This document shows, piece by piece, positions 1,928 to 40,786 of a stretch of DNA of 64,000 nucleotides (position 1 is the stretch's first letter; each line of letters starts with the position of its first letter). The translations under genes and the position numbers were made by a program. Under the pieces are notes generated by a model. That model made no database searches. It was given only the letters and a program-made list of their open reading frames with translations, and had not been told where the DNA came from. This DNA comes from Chromatiales bacterium (lineage in GTDB: Bacteria; Pseudomonadota; Gammaproteobacteria; Steroidobacterales; GCA-2729495): the NCBI GenBank assembly GCA_020351875.1, contig CP070671.1, positions 819,325-883,324 of the forward strand, written 5' to 3'.

Positions 1928-2824
1928 ATGGCCAGGTTATTTACCAATATTGCGCTGACCGGGAACTGGCGCGACCCGAAGGCGGGGGAATCCATTGCCA
2001 CCCTGTCCGCGCACCTGCTCGAACGGGGTTGCTCGGTGAACGTGGGCGGTGCCTATCGGGGCCCCGAGCTGCCGGGCACGGTGCGCCGCGCCGACGACGA
2101 CACGCTGATGGACGGCGCGGAACTCATGATCGCGGTGGGTGGCGACGGCACCATGCTGTACGCCGCGCGCTTCGCCGTCGACGCTACGGTGCCGCTGCTG
2201 GGAATCAATCGTGGCCGGCTCGGTTTCCTGGCCGACGTGAGCCCGGCAGAGATGCTGGCGGCCGTCGACCAGGTGCTGGCCGGCGACTGCGAGCGCGAGC
2301 AGCGCCGCCTGCTGCACGCGGAGGTCGAGTCCGAAAGCGGCAACGCATCGGGCACGGCGCTGAACGATGTCGTGGTCAAGCGCCTGGACTCCGGACGCAT
2401 GTTCGAATTTCAGACCCTCGTCAATGACGTGTACGTGAACACGCACGGCGGTGATGGTTTTATCGTCGCCACCCCCACCGGCTCCACTGCCTATGCGCTG
2501 AGCTGCGGCGGCCCGATCCTGACACCCCAGCTCGACGCGCTGGTGCTCGCCCCGATCTGTCCGCACACGCTGAGCGACCGCCCGATCGTGATTCCCGGCA
2601 ACAGCCGCGCGGAGATTCGCCTGCGTGAACGGGACGAAGATGCGGCCGCCGTGTGCTGCGACGGCGACGTGATCGGCCACATTGGCGCCGGTGATCGCCT
2701 GCTCGTGACCGCCAGTGACGCCCGCCTGGAACTCATTCACCCGCCCGGCTACGACTTCTATGAAATCCTGCGCGGCAAACTCCACTGGGGCCGCAGCAAC
2801 CGGCAGTCGCAGCGCCCGGGCTGA
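1928..2824 (+). CDS. nadK: NAD kinase
   Basis: ATP-dependent NAD kinase, the only route to NADP in most bacteria; cytoplasmic. At 298 residues it has the usual length. The diagnostic GGDGT motif is at residues 71-75, followed by NRGRLGFL near residue 97 and the second conserved block GDGFIVATPTGSTAYALS. It is divergent from hrcA and its TGA stop is directly followed by the ATG of recN, so the two are co-transcribed and probably translationally coupled. The hrcA-nadK-recN order is common in gammaproteobacteria. Confidence 0.97.
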   Translation: MARLFTNIALTGNWRDPKAGESIATLSAHLLERGCSVNVGGAYRGPELPGTVRRADDDTLMDGAELMIAVGGDGTMLYAARFAVDATVPLLGINRGRLGFLADVSPAEMLAAVDQVLAGDCEREQRRLLHAEVESESGNASGTALNDVVVKRLDSGRMFEFQTLVNDVYVNTHGGDGFIVATPTGSTAYALSCGGPILTPQLDALVLAPICPHTLSDRPIVIPGNSRAEIRLRERDEDAAAVCCDGDVIGHIGAGDRLLVTASDARLELIHPPGYDFYEILRGKLHWGRSNRQSQRPG

Positions 2825-4519
2825 ATGGCGGTGCTGAGCAGCCTGCACATCCGGAACCTGGCCGTGGTCGCCACGGCAGACCTGGAATTTGCCGACGGGC
2901 TCACCGTGATGACGGGCGAGACCGGCGCCGGAAAATCCATCCTGGTGGATGCGCTGGCGCTGGCGCTGGGGGCCCGCGGCGAAGCGCGGCTGGTGCGCAG
3001 CGGCGCAACCCGCGCCGAGATTTCCGCCGTGTTCGACACCGCCACGCTGCCTGCCGCCGCCCGCACGTGGCTGACCGAACAGTCCCTCGACCTCGACGAA
3101 GACTGCGTGGTGCGTCGAATCGTGACTGCCGAAGGGCGCTCGCGGGGCTTCATCAACGATCAACCGGTCAGCATGCAGTCGCTGCGCGACCTCGGCGAAT
3201 GCCTGCTCGACCTGTGCGGCCAGCAGGCGCACCTGCAACTGCGCCATGCGGCGGCGCAGCGCCAACTGCTGGACCAGTTCGGCGGTCACGCGGAGCTCGC
3301 CGATTCCGTGCCACTGGCACATGCACAGTGGCGCCGCGCGCGCGACGAACTGAGTGCGCATGATGAAACAACCCGCGACCGCGAACAGCGCGAGGACCTG
3401 CTGAGTTTTCAGCTCCAGGAACTCGTCAGTCTGGACCTACAGGCAGGCGAGTACCCGGAACTCGAACAACTGCACAGGGTGCTGGGTGCCGGTCAACGCA
3501 TCGAGGCGGGCCTGCAGGATGCATTGACGGCCCTTTACGATGCCGATGACGGCGCCGCACAACAGGTCCTCGCGCGTGCCGCGCGCCAGCTGGGGGAGCT
3601 GGCCGACACCGACCCAAGCATCGGCCCGGTGGCGCAGCTAGTGGCGGAAGCCGACGTCCTGGTCAGCGAAGCGGCAACCGCCGTACGCGAACGTCTCGCG
3701 GCGCTGGATCACGACCCCGCCCGCGAGGCGGAAGTCAGCCAGCGCCTGTCGGATACTCGAGCGCTGGCCCGCAAGCACCGCGTGGAGCCCGACGACCTGC
3801 CGGCGCTGCACGCCAGGCTGGCAGAAGAACTCGATTCGATTACGCACAGCGAGACGCGACGCGCCGAGCTGGTTGCGAAACTGGAGGCCAACGCGCTGGC
3901 GCTGGAAGAAGCCGCCGCGGCGCTCAGCGCGGCCAGGCAGGCGGCGGCTGGCCGCCTCGCCGTGCAGGTCACCGAGCACATGCAGGCGCTGGGCATGCCC
4001 GGCGGGCGCTTCGAAGTCGAACTGCTGCCGCTGGACGCGGCCGAGGCGGGCGCTCACGGTGCAGAGACCGTCGCATTCATTGTTGCGGCAAACCCCGGCC
4101 AGGCGGGCGGCCCGCTGGGGCGTGTCGCGTCCGGTGGAGAACTATCGCGCATCAGCCTGGCGCTGCAGGTGGCAGCGCGCGCGAAGGGCTGCGCAGCCAC
4201 GCTGATTTTCGATGAAGTGGACAGCGGCGTTGGCGGTCGCGTGGCCGAGATGGTCGGCCAGCAGCTACATGCACTGGCCGGCCGCGGGCAGGTGCTGTGC
4301 GTGACCCACCTGCCGCAGGTTGCGAGCCAGGCAGATCATCATTTCCGGGTCAGCAAGCACACCGACGGAAAAGACACCGCGACGGCCGCGGTCGCCCTGG
4401 ACGAGGGCGAACGCGTGGAAGAACTCGCCCGCATGCTCGGCGGCCTGAAAATTACCCAGCGCACGCGCGACCACGCGCGGGAGATGCTGGCCGCTGCAGA
4501 CTTGCGCGAAGCGGGCTAG
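2825..4519 (+). CDS. recN: DNA repair protein RecN
   Basis: SMC-like ATPase acting early in double-strand break repair, bridging or tethering DNA ends for RecA. The product is 564 residues, typical for RecN. Walker A GETGAGKS is at residues 31-38, a long coiled-coil hairpin fills the middle, and the C-terminal ABC signature LGRVASGGELSRISLA and Walker B TLIFDEVDSGVGG are intact. It starts on the base after the nadK stop. In E. coli recN is SOS controlled; no LexA box could be placed here because there is no upstream gap. Confidence 0.97.
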   Translation: MAVLSSLHIRNLAVVATADLEFADGLTVMTGETGAGKSILVDALALALGARGEARLVRSGATRAEISAVFDTATLPAAARTWLTEQSLDLDEDCVVRRIVTAEGRSRGFINDQPVSMQSLRDLGECLLDLCGQQAHLQLRHAAAQRQLLDQFGGHAELADSVPLAHAQWRRARDELSAHDETTRDREQREDLLSFQLQELVSLDLQAGEYPELEQLHRVLGAGQRIEAGLQDALTALYDADDGAAQQVLARAARQLGELADTDPSIGPVAQLVAEADVLVSEAATAVRERLAALDHDPAREAEVSQRLSDTRALARKHRVEPDDLPALHARLAEELDSITHSETRRAELVAKLEANALALEEAAAALSAARQAAAGRLAVQVTEHMQALGMPGGRFEVELLPLDAAEAGAHGAETVAFIVAANPGQAGGPLGRVASGGELSRISLALQVAARAKGCAATLIFDEVDSGVGGRVAEMVGQQLHALAGRGQVLCVTHLPQVASQADHHFRVSKHTDGKDTATAAVALDEGERVEELARMLGGLKITQRTRDHAREMLAAADLREAG

Positions 4520-4596
4520 CCTGCGTCCCTTCCCTGTTCCCCATCGGGTATCATCTCGCGCCGATCGTCCGCCACGCATCGCCGCCTCACCACAGC

Positions 4597-4938
4597 ATGG
4601 AACCTTTGTCCGCACTGACCAGACCGAAATTATTGATAGCTGCACTCGTCGGCGTCTGTTTGCTGGCGGGCTGTGTCTATCGTGTGGACGTGCAGCAGGG
4701 CAACCTGCTCGAGTACTCGGACATCCAGGCGGTGAAACCCGGCATGACGCGCAGCCAGGTGCGCTTTCTGCTCGGCACGCCGGTGGTGGACGATCCCTTC
4801 GACAAGGACCGCTGGGATTACATCTATTACTTCCGCAAAGGCCGCGGCAAGCGAGCCGATCAGCGCTGGCTGATCGTGCTGTTCAGCGATGATCGCGTGA
4901 CCGAGATTCGGCGCGACGTGCAGGTCGAACCCAGCTGA
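4597..4938 (+). CDS. bamE: Outer membrane protein assembly factor BamE
   Basis: Small lipoprotein of the BAM complex that folds beta-barrel proteins into the outer membrane. The 113-residue product has a signal peptide ending in the lipobox LLAGC, with the acylated cysteine at residue 26. The SmpA/OmlA core follows, with the family motif VKPGMTRSQVRFLLGTPVV and the WDYIYYF strand. I placed the start at the ATG at 4597, which gives a normal lipoprotein signal; longer in-frame extensions overlap recN. Its stop directly abuts the convergent rnfH stop. Confidence 0.94.
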   Translation: MEPLSALTRPKLLIAALVGVCLLAGCVYRVDVQQGNLLEYSDIQAVKPGMTRSQVRFLLGTPVVDDPFDKDRWDYIYYFRKGRGKRADQRWLIVLFSDDRVTEIRRDVQVEPS

Positions 4939-5262
4939 TCACTCTTTCGCCGGCGGCGGCCGGCTCAACATGGTCTCCCCGCGCGCCGCCAGTTCCCGGC
5001 GCGCGTCCCGCGGTTCGCGTTGCAACGGGCGCAGTACTTCCACCCGGTCGCCGGCTGCCAGGCGATAGTCGTCCGCGACGACGCTGCCGTACACGGCCAG
5101 CGGCGCAGTGATCAGTTCGATATCCGGAAACCGCGCATCCAGTTGCGCGCGTTCAATCGCCTGTCGCGCCGTCGTGCCTGGCGGCACTTGCAGCGACACG
5201 AGTTCCTGGCGCGTCGCCGATGCACACGCGACTTCTATCGCGATCGCATCCTTGTCAGCCAT
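4939..5262 (-). CDS. rnfH: RnfH family ubiquitin-like protein
   Basis: Small beta-grasp (ubiquitin-fold) protein of the RnfH/UPF0125 family, 107 residues. The biochemical role is not established; family members sit next to ratA and sometimes rnf genes. Visible family features are the N-terminal strand AIAIEVACA, the VPPGTTARQAIERA segment and GDRVEVLRPL near the C-terminus. I chose the ATG at 5262; the reading frame is open 22 codons further. Its first 8 bases overlap the 3' end of ratA, so the pair is translationally coupled. Confidence 0.88.
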   Translation of the reverse strand: MADKDAIAIEVACASATRQELVSLQVPPGTTARQAIERAQLDARFPDIELITAPLAVYGSVVADDYRLAAGDRVEVLRPLQREPRDARRELAARGETMLSRPPPAKE

Positions 5263-5686
5263 AAACCTCGGCGGCACGCGACACGAATGCGTCGACGAGC
5301 CGATTGCAGGTTTGCTCGAAAGCCGCACCCAGCACCAGGTCCTTCAAGGGATTGGAAAATGCGAAACGCATCTGCAAGTCGATCTGGCAACCGTTGTCGC
5401 CCAGCGGCGTGAAGCGCCAGTCGCCGTGCAGCTCGCTGAACGGCCCCTCGACGAGTTCCAGGGTCATCGCCTCGGGCGGGTCGAGCCGGTTACGCGTGGT
5501 CAACCCGCCGGTCAACGGACCCATGGCCATTTCCAGGCGCCCGGTCAGCGCCTTGTCGTCGCGGTCGAGCAGTTGCGCGTCGGCACACCACGGCACGAAG
5601 TCGGGGTAACTCTCGACGTCGGCAACCAGGTCGAACATCTGTGCCGGCGTGTAGGGGACGATCACACTGCGATGCAGTTCGCGCAC
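5255..5686 (-). CDS. ratA: RatA-like START/COQ10 domain protein
   Basis: Lipid- or quinone-binding START-like protein. E. coli RatA has been reported to inhibit 70S assembly, while eukaryotic COQ10 relatives bind ubiquinone; which applies here is unknown. The family start HRSVIVPYTPAQMFDLV is followed by YPDFVPWC and the C-terminal FEQTCNRLVDAF helix. The start is uncertain: GTG at 5686 matches the usual N-terminus, and a TTG at 5707 would overlap the upstream transporter gene. It is followed by rnfH, the conserved gammaproteobacterial pair normally found near smpB, as here. Confidence 0.88.
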   Translation of the reverse strand: MRELHRSVIVPYTPAQMFDLVADVESYPDFVPWCADAQLLDRDDKALTGRLEMAMGPLTGGLTTRNRLDPPEAMTLELVEGPFSELHGDWRFTPLGDNGCQIDLQMRFAFSNPLKDLVLGAAFEQTCNRLVDAFVSRAAEVYG

Positions 5687-5690
5687 GACC

Positions 5691-7073
5691 TCAGCCCAGG
5701 ACGCCAATCGCGTTCAGAAACACCAGCACGACGGCGACCGGCGCTGCATAGCGCGTCAGCACCCGCCACAAGCCATACACAGTGCCCGCCTCGGGATCCA
5801 GCTCATCCGCGCTGGAGTTGCTGCACATGACCCAGCCGGCGAAGATCGTGATCAGGAAGCCACCGGCGGGCAGCATGATGTTCGAGGTCAGGTAATCGAT
5901 ATTGTCGAAGAACGTACCGCGCAGGAAACGGAGGTCCGCCAGCACGTTGAAGGACAGCACCGTGAGGAATCCCAGCGCCCAGATCGTGCCACCGGCTAAC
6001 AGCGCTGCCGCCCCGCGCCGCATCGCGTGCCCCTCCATTAGCCAGGCGACGACTGGCTCCATCAGGCTGATGGCGGAGGTCAGGCCGGCGAACGCCAGCA
6101 ACAGGAAAAAGGCGGTGCCGACGAAGACGCCGCCCGGCATCTTGGTCAATGCCAGCGGCAGCGTCTGGAACACCAGGCCCGGCCCCTCGGCAGGATCAAG
6201 ATTGTTCGCGAACACGATCGGAAAGATCACGATGCCCGCCAGCAGTGCAATCGCGGTGTCGGCGCTGACCACTGCTACGGAGGTCTTGATGATCGATTCT
6301 TCCTGCGGCAGGTAGGCCCCGTAAGCCATCACGGCACCCATGCCGACACTCAGGGAGAAAAAGGCCTGGCCCATCGCGGCCAGCACGCTGCTGCCGGTCA
6401 ACGCGTCGAAATCGGGCCGGAACAGGAAGTCGAGACCTTCGGCAAAACCACCAAAGCTGATCGAATAGCCGAGCAGCGCGAGCATGATCGCAATGAGCGC
6501 GGGCACCATGATGCGCACGGCCCGCTCCAGCCCCTTTTCGACCCCCCGCGCCACCACGAAGATCGTGATGCCCATGAACAGCGTGTGCCAGCCGGTGAGT
6601 ATCCACGGGTTAGCCACTAGTCCGCCGAACAGCTCGCCCAGCGCGGCGGCATCGGCGCCGGCGAACGTATCCTGCGCTGCCAGCACCATGTAATGGAGGG
6701 TCCAGCCGGCAATCACGCTGTAAAAAGACAGGATCAGGAAACCGCAGGCCATGCCGATCACACCCACCAATGCCCAGCGCTGCGACCCGGCCTCTTCCCG
6801 CCCGAGCAGGGCCATGGTGGTGATCGGGTTGCGCCGGCCACGGCGCCCCAGCAGGATTTCCGCCATCATGATGGGCAGGCCGATGCCGAACACGCACAGC
6901 AGGTAGATGAGCACGAACGCGCCGCCGCCGTTCTGGCCGGCAACATAGGGAAACTTCCAGATGTTGCCGAGGCCTACTGCGGACCCTGCGACCGCGAGCA
7001 CGAAGGCGAGCCGCGAAGACCACTGACCGTGTAGAGACGCCCGCGGTGTGGCAGGGTCGGCGGATTCCGCCAT
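5691..7073 (-). CDS. Sodium-dependent transporter, NSS/SNF family
   Basis: Inner-membrane Na+-coupled symporter of the neurotransmitter:sodium symporter family (LeuT fold), probably for an amino acid. The 460-residue product has about 12 hydrophobic segments. The first is the signature [20 protein letters not shown], which carries the unwound helix 1 sodium and substrate residues. A second hallmark is the helix 6 region [19 protein letters not shown]. The start is ATG 7073 with GGAAAAG upstream. It is divergent from smpB and runs into ratA. Substrate cannot be read from the sequence. Confidence 0.92.
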
Positions 7074-7154
7074 CGGCTTTTCCGGCGCTGCGAAAGTTGG
7101 CAGGATTGTGCGGCATCCCCTGAACCTCCACAACCGATTGCGACGACGGAGCGC

Positions 7155-7634
7155 ATGAGCAAGAGCGCCACAAAGAAAAAGCCCGGCAGCGACAGGATCG
7201 CTGAAAATCGCAAGGCCCGGCATGACTATTTCATCGAAGAGCAGCTCGAAGCGGGGCTGTCGCTGGAGGGATGGGAGGTCAAGAGCCTGCGCGCGGGCCG
7301 CGGCAACCTGGCAGAGAGCTACGCGGTGATCCGCGACGGCGAGATTTTCCTGCTCGGCGCCCACATCGCGCCGCTGCCCTCGGCATCGACCCACGTGCGT
7401 GCAGACCCCGTGCGCACCCGGCGGCTGCTGCTGCATCGTCGGGAAATCGACCGGCTGATCGGCGCCGTCGAGCGCAAGGGCTACACGCTCATCCCGCTGG
7501 CGCTGTACTGGCAGCGCGGCCGGGTGAAACTCGCGCTGGGCCTGGGCCGCGGCAAGAAACAGCACGACAAGCGGGCCGCCACCAAGGACCGGGACTGGCA
7601 GCGGCAGAAAGCGAGGATCCTAAAAGCTAAATAA
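7155..7634 (+). CDS. smpB: SsrA-binding protein SmpB
   Basis: Obligate partner of tmRNA in trans-translation; it binds the tRNA-like domain and occupies the decoding centre of stalled ribosomes. The 159-residue product has the family core with [29 protein letters not shown] and the basic tail [15 protein letters not shown] that enters the mRNA channel. It lies 120 bases upstream of ssrA on the same strand, the classic pairing, so any exchange of this locus could move partner and RNA together. Confidence 0.98.
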
Positions 7635-7739
7635 AACATCAGCTAATATCGTTTTCCTAAAGCTTTTTGTCGCTTGAAATCGGCCCGCTGCGGCCCCACA
7701 TATAGGAAACAGTCGGCTTCGCGGGGCAAGGGTCTGCGG

Positions 7740-7745
7740 TAGAAT
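7740..7745 (+). promoter_or_regulatory. -10 element of the ssrA promoter
   Basis: TAGAAT lies 9 bases before the first base of the tmRNA. No good -35 hexamer is seen 16-18 bases upstream. The 120-base gap between smpB and ssrA shows no clear terminator for smpB, so read-through from smpB is possible. Confidence 0.55.
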
Positions 7746-7843
7746 GATTGAACTGGGGGCGATCGGTTTCGACGAGGGTCGCGAAACTCCAGGTGCATGT
7801 CGAGGTGCAGTGACCTCGTAAATCCATCTGCAAACTTATAGTT

Positions 7844-7876
7844 GCCAACGACGACAACTACGCACTCGCCGCCTAA
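7844..7876 (+). other. tmRNA proteolysis tag reading frame
   Basis: The tag frame starts at the resume codon GCC (7844) and ends with TAA (7874-7876), encoding ANDDNYALAA. The ALAA end is the ClpXP-type degron. The alanine resume codon is preceded by the A-rich stretch normal for the resume site. The same tag is known in many gammaproteobacteria. Confidence 0.95.
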
Positions 7877-8097
7877 AACCCGGTAGGGTGCCGTCTGACC
7901 GGAGCCGTGCTTGTGCGTCCGTCATCAGACGTCATCTCTCACAAGATCGCCGCAAAGCTCGTCCGGGGTGGAGCGGTTAAAACTTAACCGGAATCGCCGT
8001 TCGTCTTCCCTGCCCATCGGGTAGCGGCCGGTTAAATTAATTGATGCGGATAAGCATGTAGATCCTGGGGCGGAGGGCTCGCGGACGCGGGTTCGAT

Positions 8098-8365
8098 TAG
8101 TGAAATGGTCGCCACGGGGAGTGATCCCCGACGGAAAAGAGGGCTCATACGGTGAACGCTAAGGGGCATTGCCCTATGCCAACGCCGTCCGGTGAATGGG
8201 AAACCAGTAAGCCGGCTAGAGACTCATAGGCTCCTAAGGCCTTACGGCAATGGAGTACTAGGGTGGACAGGTTGAAGACTCGACCTGCCCACAACACGCC
8301 CTCCCCTGCAGACAACTGCAGGTGAAGGAATAGTCCGGCCCGTATTGAAAGATACGGAACAGCTG
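8098..8365 (+). mobile_element. Group I intron in the tmRNA T-loop
   Basis: Self-splicing type intron of 268 bases with no reading frame inside. The 5' exon ends ...TTCGAT at 8097. P1 forms between 8094-8099 (CGATTA) and 8106-8111 (TGGTCG) and places U8097 opposite G8108, the required wobble. A TGG-GAAA-CCA hairpin (8197-8206) is a GNRA tetraloop. The R-like element CTAGAGACTCATAGG (from 8215) and S-like GAAGGAATAGTCC (8324-8336) form P7 by pairing GACT 8221-8224 with AGTC 8332-8335. P9 is CCGTAT/ATACGG (8340-8357). The intron ends at G8365. The core elements resemble those of bacterial tRNA introns. P3 and P4 were not fully resolved by eye. Confidence 0.92.
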
Positions 8366-8387
8366 TCCCGCCGCCTCCACCACTCTG

Positions 8388-8414
8388 AAACCCGGCGAAA
8401 AGCCGGGTTTTCTT
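8388..8414 (+). terminator. Rho-independent terminator of ssrA
   Basis: A 9-bp stem AAACCCGGC/GCCGGGTTT (8388-8396 with 8402-8410) with loop GAAAA is followed by a T-rich tail. It starts six bases after the tmRNA CCA end and separates ssrA from the endonuclease gene. Confidence 0.9.
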
Positions 8415-8451: not shown

Positions 8452-8916
8452 GTGAACAGGCTAGATTGCTGTCAGGCAGCCTACATTGCGGGCCTGATCG
8501 ATGCAGACGGGACCGTCACCCTGACCCGCAGGCACCGCAACGAGACACGCCACGCCGCCGTCTATCTGAGCAACACGGACCGACAATTGCTCGAATACGT
8601 GTTGCGAACGGTCGGCGCCGGCAAGATCACTAATAAACGCTCGGTGGGGCGACGACACCGCCCGAGCTATGCCTACGCCATCACTAATCGACAGGCCGTC
8701 CGCCTGCTTGCGGATATCGAACCCTTCCTGCTCACGTATAAAGGTGATCGAGCGCGTTTGATACTTAGAGACTATATCGTCCTGACGCCCAGGAACGGTC
8801 ATTACCCAGCCGAGATTAAGGCCGCCAGGCGGCGCTTTGAAGCCGCCGTTCTGGCCATTCGACCAACGCCGTGTGATTGCGCACTACCCGCTCTCCCGGA
8901 GCGAGAGCACTACTGA
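8452..8916 (+). CDS. LAGLIDADG homing endonuclease, free-standing
   Basis: Single-motif LAGLIDADG endonuclease, expected to act as a homodimer that cuts a long specific DNA site. The motif AYIAGLIDADG is at about residues 10-20 from the GTG at 8452. It is followed by the family stretches LSNTDRQLLEYV, GAGKITNKR, YAYAITNRQAVRLL and LILRDYIVLTPRNG, which resemble endonucleases carried by bacterial rRNA group I introns. The start is uncertain: GTG 8452 or TTG 8422, neither with a strong ribosome-binding site. The gene lies outside the intron, past the ssrA terminator. Its likely target is an intronless ssrA T-loop; this is inference from position. Confidence 0.88.
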   Translation: MNRLDCCQAAYIAGLIDADGTVTLTRRHRNETRHAAVYLSNTDRQLLEYVLRTVGAGKITNKRSVGRRHRPSYAYAITNRQAVRLLADIEPFLLTYKGDRARLILRDYIVLTPRNGHYPAEIKAARRRFEAAVLAIRPTPCDCALPALPEREHY

Positions 8917-38972: not shown

Positions 38973-39072
38973 CCGCGCCAGCCACACCCCGGCGCCCGGC
39001 ATCACCGCTACCGCTGCTCCCTCCCGGGCCTGACGGGGTTCACGGCTAGCCGCCGCGGGGGGACCGGCGCGG
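38973..39072 (-). ncRNA. ffs: Signal recognition particle 4.5S RNA
   Basis: Small SRP RNA of about 100 bases that binds Ffh and targets membrane proteins. Read on the reverse strand, the conserved tip is GTCAGGCCCGGGAGGGAGCA, matching the E. coli GGTCAGGTCCGGAAGGAAGCA core. The ends CCGCGCC and GGCGCGG pair perfectly, and internal helices close the rod. The position directly before dnaX is a known arrangement. A possible promoter TTGCCC-17-TAACCT lies just upstream. Confidence 0.93.
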
Positions 39073-40381: not shown

Positions 40382-40786
40382 GTGCTCGACTTGTATACCC
40401 GACTGGCGGCCCGGCTGCGGCCACACGCGTGGGTCGGCTGGCTGCTGGTGCTGGTCGCTGGTGTGACTTTCCCGATCGCGGTGTTCCTGGTGCAGGGTGA
40501 AACCGGCCAGTTCCTGGCCCTCGCCGCCATCACGCTGCTGCTGTGGGCCCTGACGCTCCGCGCGTTCATCACCGCCTTCGCCGACCCGCTGCCCTCACCG
40601 TCGTCCGGCGCAGGCCTGGTCACCCGACTCAAGGCACGCCTTCGGCGGCTCTATCGCGGGTTGCTGGCCTTGCTGATTACGCTGCTGCTGGTGCTGGTCG
40701 CCTGGTTCTCGATTCGTGCCGCACTGCTAACGATGGACCGACCGCAAGCTGAGTTGGGCGCCCAGATCGCCGAGCCGATTGGCTGA
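40382..40786 (+). CDS. Small inner-membrane protein, unknown
   Basis: 134-residue protein with three predicted membrane helices (VGWLLVLVAGVTFPIAVFLV, FLALAAITLLLWALTL and LLALLITLLLVLVAWFSI) and a basic loop between the second and third. The start is GTG 40382. It lies 69 bases after the DUF411 gene on the same strand. No family recognised. Confidence 0.65.
   Translation: MLDLYTRLAARLRPHAWVGWLLVLVAGVTFPIAVFLVQGETGQFLALAAITLLLWALTLRAFITAFADPLPSPSSGAGLVTRLKARLRRLYRGLLALLITLLLVLVAWFSIRAALLTMDRPQAELGAQIAEPIG

Follow-up and report, generated by a model that had tools for sequence, protein, structure and literature searches.

A group I intron in the tmRNA gene of a Chromatiales bacterium and a free-standing LAGLIDADG endonuclease gene beside it: a candidate pair for collaborative homing

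An interrupted tmRNA gene and its neighbours

The window analysed here, i.e., the whole 64,000-nucleotide stretch of Chromatiales bacterium contig CP070671.1, contains a tmRNA (ssrA) gene which spans positions 7755-8382 (+), from the acceptor strand GGGGGCG to CCA, and which is interrupted in its T-loop after TTCGAT. The 5' exon (7755-8097, +) extends from the acceptor 5' strand to TTCGAT and encodes the tag ANDDNYALAA, while the 3' exon (8366-8382, +) comprises the last T-loop base, the 3' strand of the T-stem, the acceptor and ACCA. Between them, at tRNA-like positions 59/60, lies a group I intron of 268 nt (8098-8365, +) without an endonuclease ORF. The gene encoding the tmRNA partner protein, smpB (7155-7634, +; Pfam SmpB, 1.1e-58), is located just upstream, and a LAGLIDADG homing-endonuclease gene (HEG; 8452-8916, +), specifying 154 aa with a GTG start and the single motif AGLIDADG, begins 69 bp past the tmRNA CCA, beyond a terminator-like hairpin (8387-8411, +). 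The hairpin is weakly supported on its own, two terminator-like sites having been found where 1.1 were expected in shuffles; its position supports it. The HEG had not been mentioned in the original prediction. Elsewhere in the window, a small SRP RNA gene is present at 38979-39069 (-; Rfam 56.6 bits).

The Rfam tmRNA model (RF00023) matches positions 7762-8099 with 173.5 bits, the 3' strand of the T-stem and the acceptor being absent from the match. With the insert left in place, whether in the whole window or in a 900-bp stretch, ARAGORN detected no tmRNA; once 8098-8365 had been removed, it reported a complete 360-nt tmRNA with the tag ANDDNYALAA, the T-arm of the joined exons being GCGGGTTCGATTCCCGC. 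The original prediction that a 268-base insert splits the tmRNA within the T-loop is thereby borne out. When the plus strand was scanned from 8100 to 63900 for a 5/5 T-stem and 7/7 acceptor complement, with G-U pairs allowed in the acceptor, only two places were returned, namely the claimed 3' exon, followed by ACCA, and a second at 40585, followed by ACCG. Excision of 8099-8366 gives a product identical to that of 8098-8365, and the latter is preferred because of the terminal-G rule. The genome possesses a single tmRNA above the family cut-off, from which it is inferred that trans-translation should depend on splicing; no second copy of the intron was found in this genome.

Group I fold of the intron

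The Rfam group I model (Intron_gpI, RF00028) matches positions 8088-8357 over its full length (1-253) with 27.9 bits and an E value of 3.2e-5, or 5.5e-5 at the scale of the whole genome. Although significant, this score is under the curators' gathering level of 50 bits. Of the two covariance models named in the original prediction, that of the tmRNA thus gave the 173.5-bit match described above, while that of the group I intron met expectation in its significance and not in its cut-off.

The hallmarks which had been put forward for a group I intron at 59/60 all fit: P1 (8094-8099/8106-8111) has six pairs with U8097.G8108 at the 5' splice site, P7 is formed by GACU (8221-8224) and AGUC (8332-8335), P9 (8340-8346/8351-8357) is capped by a GAAA loop of the GNRA type, and the last intron base is G8365. 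P3 (8139-8144/8298-8303) and P8 (8305-8311/8316-8322) could also be assigned, the core helices having been placed by hand. A terminal G is present in 69 of 69 introns compared. For P3 and P7 the comparison leaves out 32 of the 69, mostly from Bacillota, which the pattern did not parse. Among the other 37, P3 retains all six pairs in 36 and five in one, with the covariants GAGGGC/GCCCUC, CGGGGC/GCCCCG, CGGAGC/GCUCCG and GAGAGC/GCUCUC, while P7 remains GACU/AGUC in 33 and so contributes no covariation. P2 and P9 covary as well. What would be expected of a group I intron, i.e., the core helices P3, P7, P8 and P9 together with supporting covariation, was thus recovered, the covarying helices being P3, P2 and P9. 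A MAFFT alignment of the introns was wrong before the 3' strand of P3, and the pairing that RNAalifold drew from it (columns 72-77 with 168-174) is not the group I fold. The intron is probably self-splicing, splicing itself being inferred.

As to intron length, the longest tmRNA introns measure 453 nt (L114), 350 nt (L123) and 339 nt (L158), while the other 66 fall between 251 and 300 nt. Two further group I matches, of 37 and 26.4 bits and both below the cut-off, occur in the same genome, near the anticodon of a tRNA-Leu gene and a tRNA-Arg gene (C1:2034239-2034448, i.e., L010 1501-1710, and C1:1807498-1807694, i.e., L012 1501-1697).

The adjoining gene and its predicted product

The intron ends at 8365, and the HEG, being located outside it, is not intron-encoded at this locus. 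A plain T-loop intron without anything further was considered as a description of the locus and was ruled out by the adjoining HEG.

The HEG product matches Pfam LAGLIDADG_3 (4.1e-10) and the I-MsoI profile (E 3.6e-13). An AlphaFold2 model, based on an alignment of 50 relatives, attained a pLDDT of 89.8 and a pTM of 0.80, and its best structural matches are I-CreI, I-CvuI and I-MsoI, with sequence identities of 16-23% (for I-CreI, Z 15.6, rmsd 2.2, 127 aligned residues and 17% identity). On the basis of this model, the product is predicted to be an I-CreI-like homodimeric LAGLIDADG endonuclease, with DNA cleavage inferred. It resembles these three enzymes in being a single-motif protein of similar size and of the same predicted fold. 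The genes for I-CreI, I-CvuI and I-MsoI reside within chloroplast rRNA introns, whereas the HEG of the window lies outside the intron. The LAGLIDADG motif is retained in 80 of 80 HEG loci, and the 14 pairs whose dS was usable gave a median dN/dS of 0.13, which indicates purifying selection on the gene.

Linkage of the HEG to the intron in bacteria

Linkage of the HEG to the tmRNA intron was observed in three taxon samples. In the order to which the window belongs (396 genomes), a HEG relative is present in ten genomes and a tmRNA intron in 28; all ten are among the 28, and in 10/10 the HEG lies just 3' of the interrupted tmRNA. A long HEG frame is retained in seven, while those of G220, G228 and G357 are shortened, shifted or remnant. 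The intron occurs without a HEG in 18 of the 28. Within the genus, G004 carries the same intron and lacks any HEG match, its contig ending 41 bp past the tmRNA, while G001, G002 and G003 have an intronless tmRNA with TTCGATT and so provide the intronless ssrA allele that the original prediction would have sought in close relatives. TTCGATT is found in 34 of 38 intronless loci among the relatives of the window, which indicates that, where few genomes have the HEG, uncut targets are frequent.

A search of genome contigs with the HEG alignment returned 109 relatives, of which 80 loci were kept. Rfam identified a tmRNA in 75 of these; none was found in the other five stretches (L107, L135, L150, L156 and L174), whose genomes carry theirs at another position or on a different contig. 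The HEG is never inside the intron (0/75), lying downstream of the tmRNA gene in 74 cases and upstream in one (L140), and the gap from acceptor to HEG match is 32-327 bp, except for L159 (664 bp) and for L125, whose value is unreliable. The tmRNA carries an intron, always after TTCGAT, at 68 of the 75 loci, with L125 kept as intron-bearing on a model match. The seven intronless loci include three from Halieaceae (L102, L104 and L116), with L130, L131, L139 and L140 (the last judged by eye) making up the remainder; three of these four are titled candidate-phylum bacteria and L139 only 'bacterium'. At L131, the HEG stands beside an uninterrupted TTCGATT. At 38 intron loci, which by record title belong to Pseudomonadota, Nitrospirota, one Anaerolineae MAG and others, HEG and tmRNA are in tandem; at 30, from Bacillota (one labelled Clostridium), they are convergent. 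This division, convergent in Bacillota and tandem elsewhere, suggests that it is the site that has been kept, and not one ancestral arrangement.

Among 193 genomes of a Bacillota family, 106 possess the intron, 63 the HEG and 62 both. HEG and tmRNA are within 34-609 bp of each other in 56 of these 62, all 56 being convergent; in five they are 6-55 kb apart and in one they are on separate contigs. The intron is present without the HEG in 44 of the 106. Fisher tests of the HEG-intron association ignore relatedness. The possibility that the HEG is a chance neighbour was ruled out by the 10/10 and 62/63 associations and by the tmRNA at 75 of 80 loci.

In G486 (L337), Tn7-like transposon genes at 2780-8227 (a TnsA/TnsB-like fusion, TniB and TniQ) adjoin the HEG, the latter being 54 kb from the tmRNA, and this transposon may explain the large gap. 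In G424 (L343 960-1460), the tmRNA has an intact intronless 3' end, and 292 bp beyond it stand an intron truncated at its 5' side and another 3' exon, a pattern resembling a bypass of the intron by a newly acquired 3' end; the HEG remnant lies 55 kb off.

These distributions bear on the proposal that the LAGLIDADG protein is a maturase which aids splicing of the intron, in which case the linkage would reflect function and not mobility. Some LAGLIDADG proteins are indeed splicing factors, the maturases I-AniI and bI3 appear further down the list of structural matches of the model, and purifying selection on the gene would also be expected of a maturase. The many introns without a HEG and the decaying HEG copies, however, indicate that the HEG is not needed for splicing; furthermore, intronless tmRNAs also carry the HEG, and the closest structures are DNA endonucleases, so that of all explanations weighed here we give this one the least credence.

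HEG relatives in phages and plasmids

Phage records yielded nine weak HEG matches (28-37% identity). A search of viral contigs returned 32 distant HEG relatives, the best 12 of which were scanned with Rfam, and the best four of these 12 loci (L176-L179) flank a tmRNA. In L176 and L177, which have an identical core, the HEG is convergent with an intron-bearing tmRNA; in L178 it lies downstream of an intronless tmRNA; and in L179 it is positioned just upstream of a permuted tmRNA. On the L179 contig (3001-3791), the HEG relative ends ~16 bp before the permuted alpha-type tmRNA match, near the end of the T-arm. The other eight of the best 12 (L180-L187) had no tmRNA at the Rfam cut-off, and no HEG relative was found on plasmids at an E value of 1e-5.

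T-loop variants and second 3' ends

The family of Seongchinamella, Halieaceae, was sampled with 100 genomes, in which 76 tmRNAs scored above the cut-off and 69 were read, six of the 76 plus G620 being left out of the T-loop count and L332, which duplicates genome G600 of L250, being counted once. HEG-less intronless members have the T-loops TTCAACT (41), TTCAATT (15), TTCAAGT (one) and TTCGAGA (one), i.e., TTCAA.. in 57 of 58. Seven tmRNAs are intron-bearing, five with the HEG and two without, and all read TTCGATT when joined, while no intronless TTCGATT was encountered among the 69. Nine members carry the HEG, five of them with the intron and four intronless with TTCGAGA or TTCGAAA.

The intron-bearing Halieaceae tmRNAs have a family-like body up to the T-loop, where, three bases ahead of the intron, A57 is replaced by G, and are followed by a terminator of another type than in relatives. 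From the sequences, G57 and the new terminator appear as the footprint that co-conversion would leave, the converted tract being short on the left and longer on the right. These exon changes point away from reverse splicing alone, because reverse splicing leaves exons unchanged. The Halieaceae T-loop differences could also be old lineage traits.

A second tmRNA 3' end is present beyond some HEGs. In Seongchinamella unica (L333), two tmRNA 3' ends, 662 bp from each other, enclose the HEG. The first is new (TTCGAGACCGG; the tmRNA terminates with TTCGAGACCGGCC...) and is succeeded by a terminator and the HEG, while the second, downstream of the HEG, is displaced, has the TTCAACT usual for the family (TTCAACTCCCGCC...) and is accompanied by the same terminator. 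The breakpoint between old sequence and new falls in the T-loop and not in the spacer. Second 3' ends are likewise found beyond the HEG in the intron-bearing loci L110 (an exact 17-base copy) and L118 (two mismatches), in phage L178 (exact) and, in decayed form and seen by eye, in L104 (= L334). With up to two mismatches allowed, six matches were obtained in 74 loci against none with reversed strings. One of the six, in L122, is on the opposite strand ~2.7 kb away and probably due to chance, while that of L104 is situated between tmRNA and HEG. At up to four mismatches the search is noise, with another copy in 13 of 73 loci against 20 control matches. No displaced 3' end was found near the HEG in the window, nor at most loci. 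The simplest account is a joint entry of 3' end, terminator and HEG into the T-loop, along with the intron where there is one, the old 3' end being pushed outward.

Integration of an island would likewise leave two 3' ends, one restored and one displaced, and it could be argued that the HEG is leftover cargo of recombinase-integrated islands at the ssrA 3' end, with the second 3' ends as attachment-site remnants. The part of the tmRNA intron survey available to us does give ssrA as a known island site (PMC11915505), and a Tn7-like transposon adjoins the HEG of G486. Between the L333 3' ends, however, no recombinase gene was found, the HEG being alone there; moreover, one and the same HEG family is always at this gene, with a distance to the acceptor of 32-327 bp at nearly every locus, unlike random cargo. 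We consider this origin very improbable.

The L333 break also weighs on a further alternative, according to which the free-standing HEG homes by itself into the ssrA spacer, its target being the gene end or spacer, while the intron occupies the T-loop independently of it and has no more than the neighbourhood in common with it. Intronless tmRNAs at seven of the 75 tmRNA-linked HEG loci, the intronless tmRNA of phage L178 and the permuted one of L179 agree with such independence, as does the only moderate correlation between HEG and intron distances: over 36 loci, HEG distances correlate with those of the tmRNA 5' exon at r 0.46 and with those of the intron at r 0.35 (partial 0.27). HEG distances thus track the 5' exon better than the intron, indicating that the pair is not strictly a co-inherited unit. 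This alternative is nevertheless judged unlikely, given that the HEG is nearly confined to intron carriers (10/10 in the order, 62/63 in the Bacillota family) and that the old and new sequences of L333 meet in the T-loop and not in the spacer.

Collaborative homing as the favoured interpretation

An ORF-less intron beside a free-standing HEG is the arrangement called for by collaborative homing, and we favour the interpretation, with a probability of roughly 0.7, that the external HEG and the ORF-less tmRNA intron form a two-part selfish element. The I-CreI-like homodimeric enzyme encoded by the external HEG would, most likely, cut ssrA genes at the T-loop where this is uninterrupted, and intron, replacement 3' exon, terminator and HEG would be installed in a single conversion tract when the cut is repaired with the carrier copy as template. 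A T-loop that is interrupted by the intron, or altered as in some lineages, would no longer be cut; the intron would thus shield its carrier while splicing spares the tmRNA, and intronless carriers would apparently be protected by an altered T-loop instead. The HEG enzyme therefore probably spreads the tmRNA intron, transfer being inferred and mobility likewise not having been observed.

The cleavage site is also inferred: only indirect data, i.e., the T-loop break of L333, the altered Halieaceae T-loops and G57, equate the HEG target with the intron site, and L131 is an exception. Against a strict unit stand the 5'-exon correlation, the many HEG-less introns and the L131 HEG beside an intact TTCGATT. 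More tentatively, and with somewhat less than an even chance of being correct, the HEGs may represent an ssrA-devoted LAGLIDADG family of bacteria and phages which was originally an intron-free T-loop cassette with a replacement 3' end, displacing the old one to the far side of the HEG as in L333 and L178, the intron being a later partner which occupies the target and gives immunity. If so, a general homing system, independent of the intron, would reside in ssrA and would spare the host gene by 3'-end replacement and not by splicing.

Relation to known systems and implications

The original prediction regarded T-loop introns in tmRNA as reported in a few bacteria, which does not agree with the published survey: as given in the portion available to us, it comprises 883 unique tmRNA sequences with a T-loop intron from 21 phyla, most at subsite 7 (PMC11915505). 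The intron site of the window is taken to be this subsite 7. The gene, the loop, the subsite after T59, the U at -1, the terminal G and the short intron are all shared with these intron-form tmRNA genes, among which LAGLIDADG HEGs are also known (PMC11915505, same portion). The published HEGs, however, are found within 36 of the 883 introns, where they occupy P7.1 or follow P9, whereas that of the window lies past the tmRNA 3' end. The T-loop intron alone is thus of an already known kind, and the external HEG is the unusual part. Within the open-access PMC literature, as far as its text was accessible, no HEG beside, as opposed to within, an intron-bearing tmRNA gene was found to be described, subscription papers and preprints being outside this scope.

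Collaborative (trans) homing has previously been described in phages, for example for F-CphI with the cyanophage psbA intron, in T3/T7-like phages and for the ICP1 terminase (PMC3984707, PMC10448857). To the extent that these sources could be consulted, it has so far been described in phages, while the present case also involves bacterial chromosomes of several phyla and differs further in concerning a non-coding RNA gene and a LAGLIDADG enzyme, with cleavage inferred.

The small number of HEGs in tmRNA introns leaves open, on the evidence of the accessible survey text (PMC11915505), how these introns reach 21 phyla. An endonuclease gene outside the intron, beside ssrA, would answer part of this question of spread, an idea that is open to direct testing given that the enzyme has a single motif, the target is short and intronless variants exist. 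Such a gene would furthermore extend collaborative homing, as known from the sources available, from phages to bacterial chromosomes.
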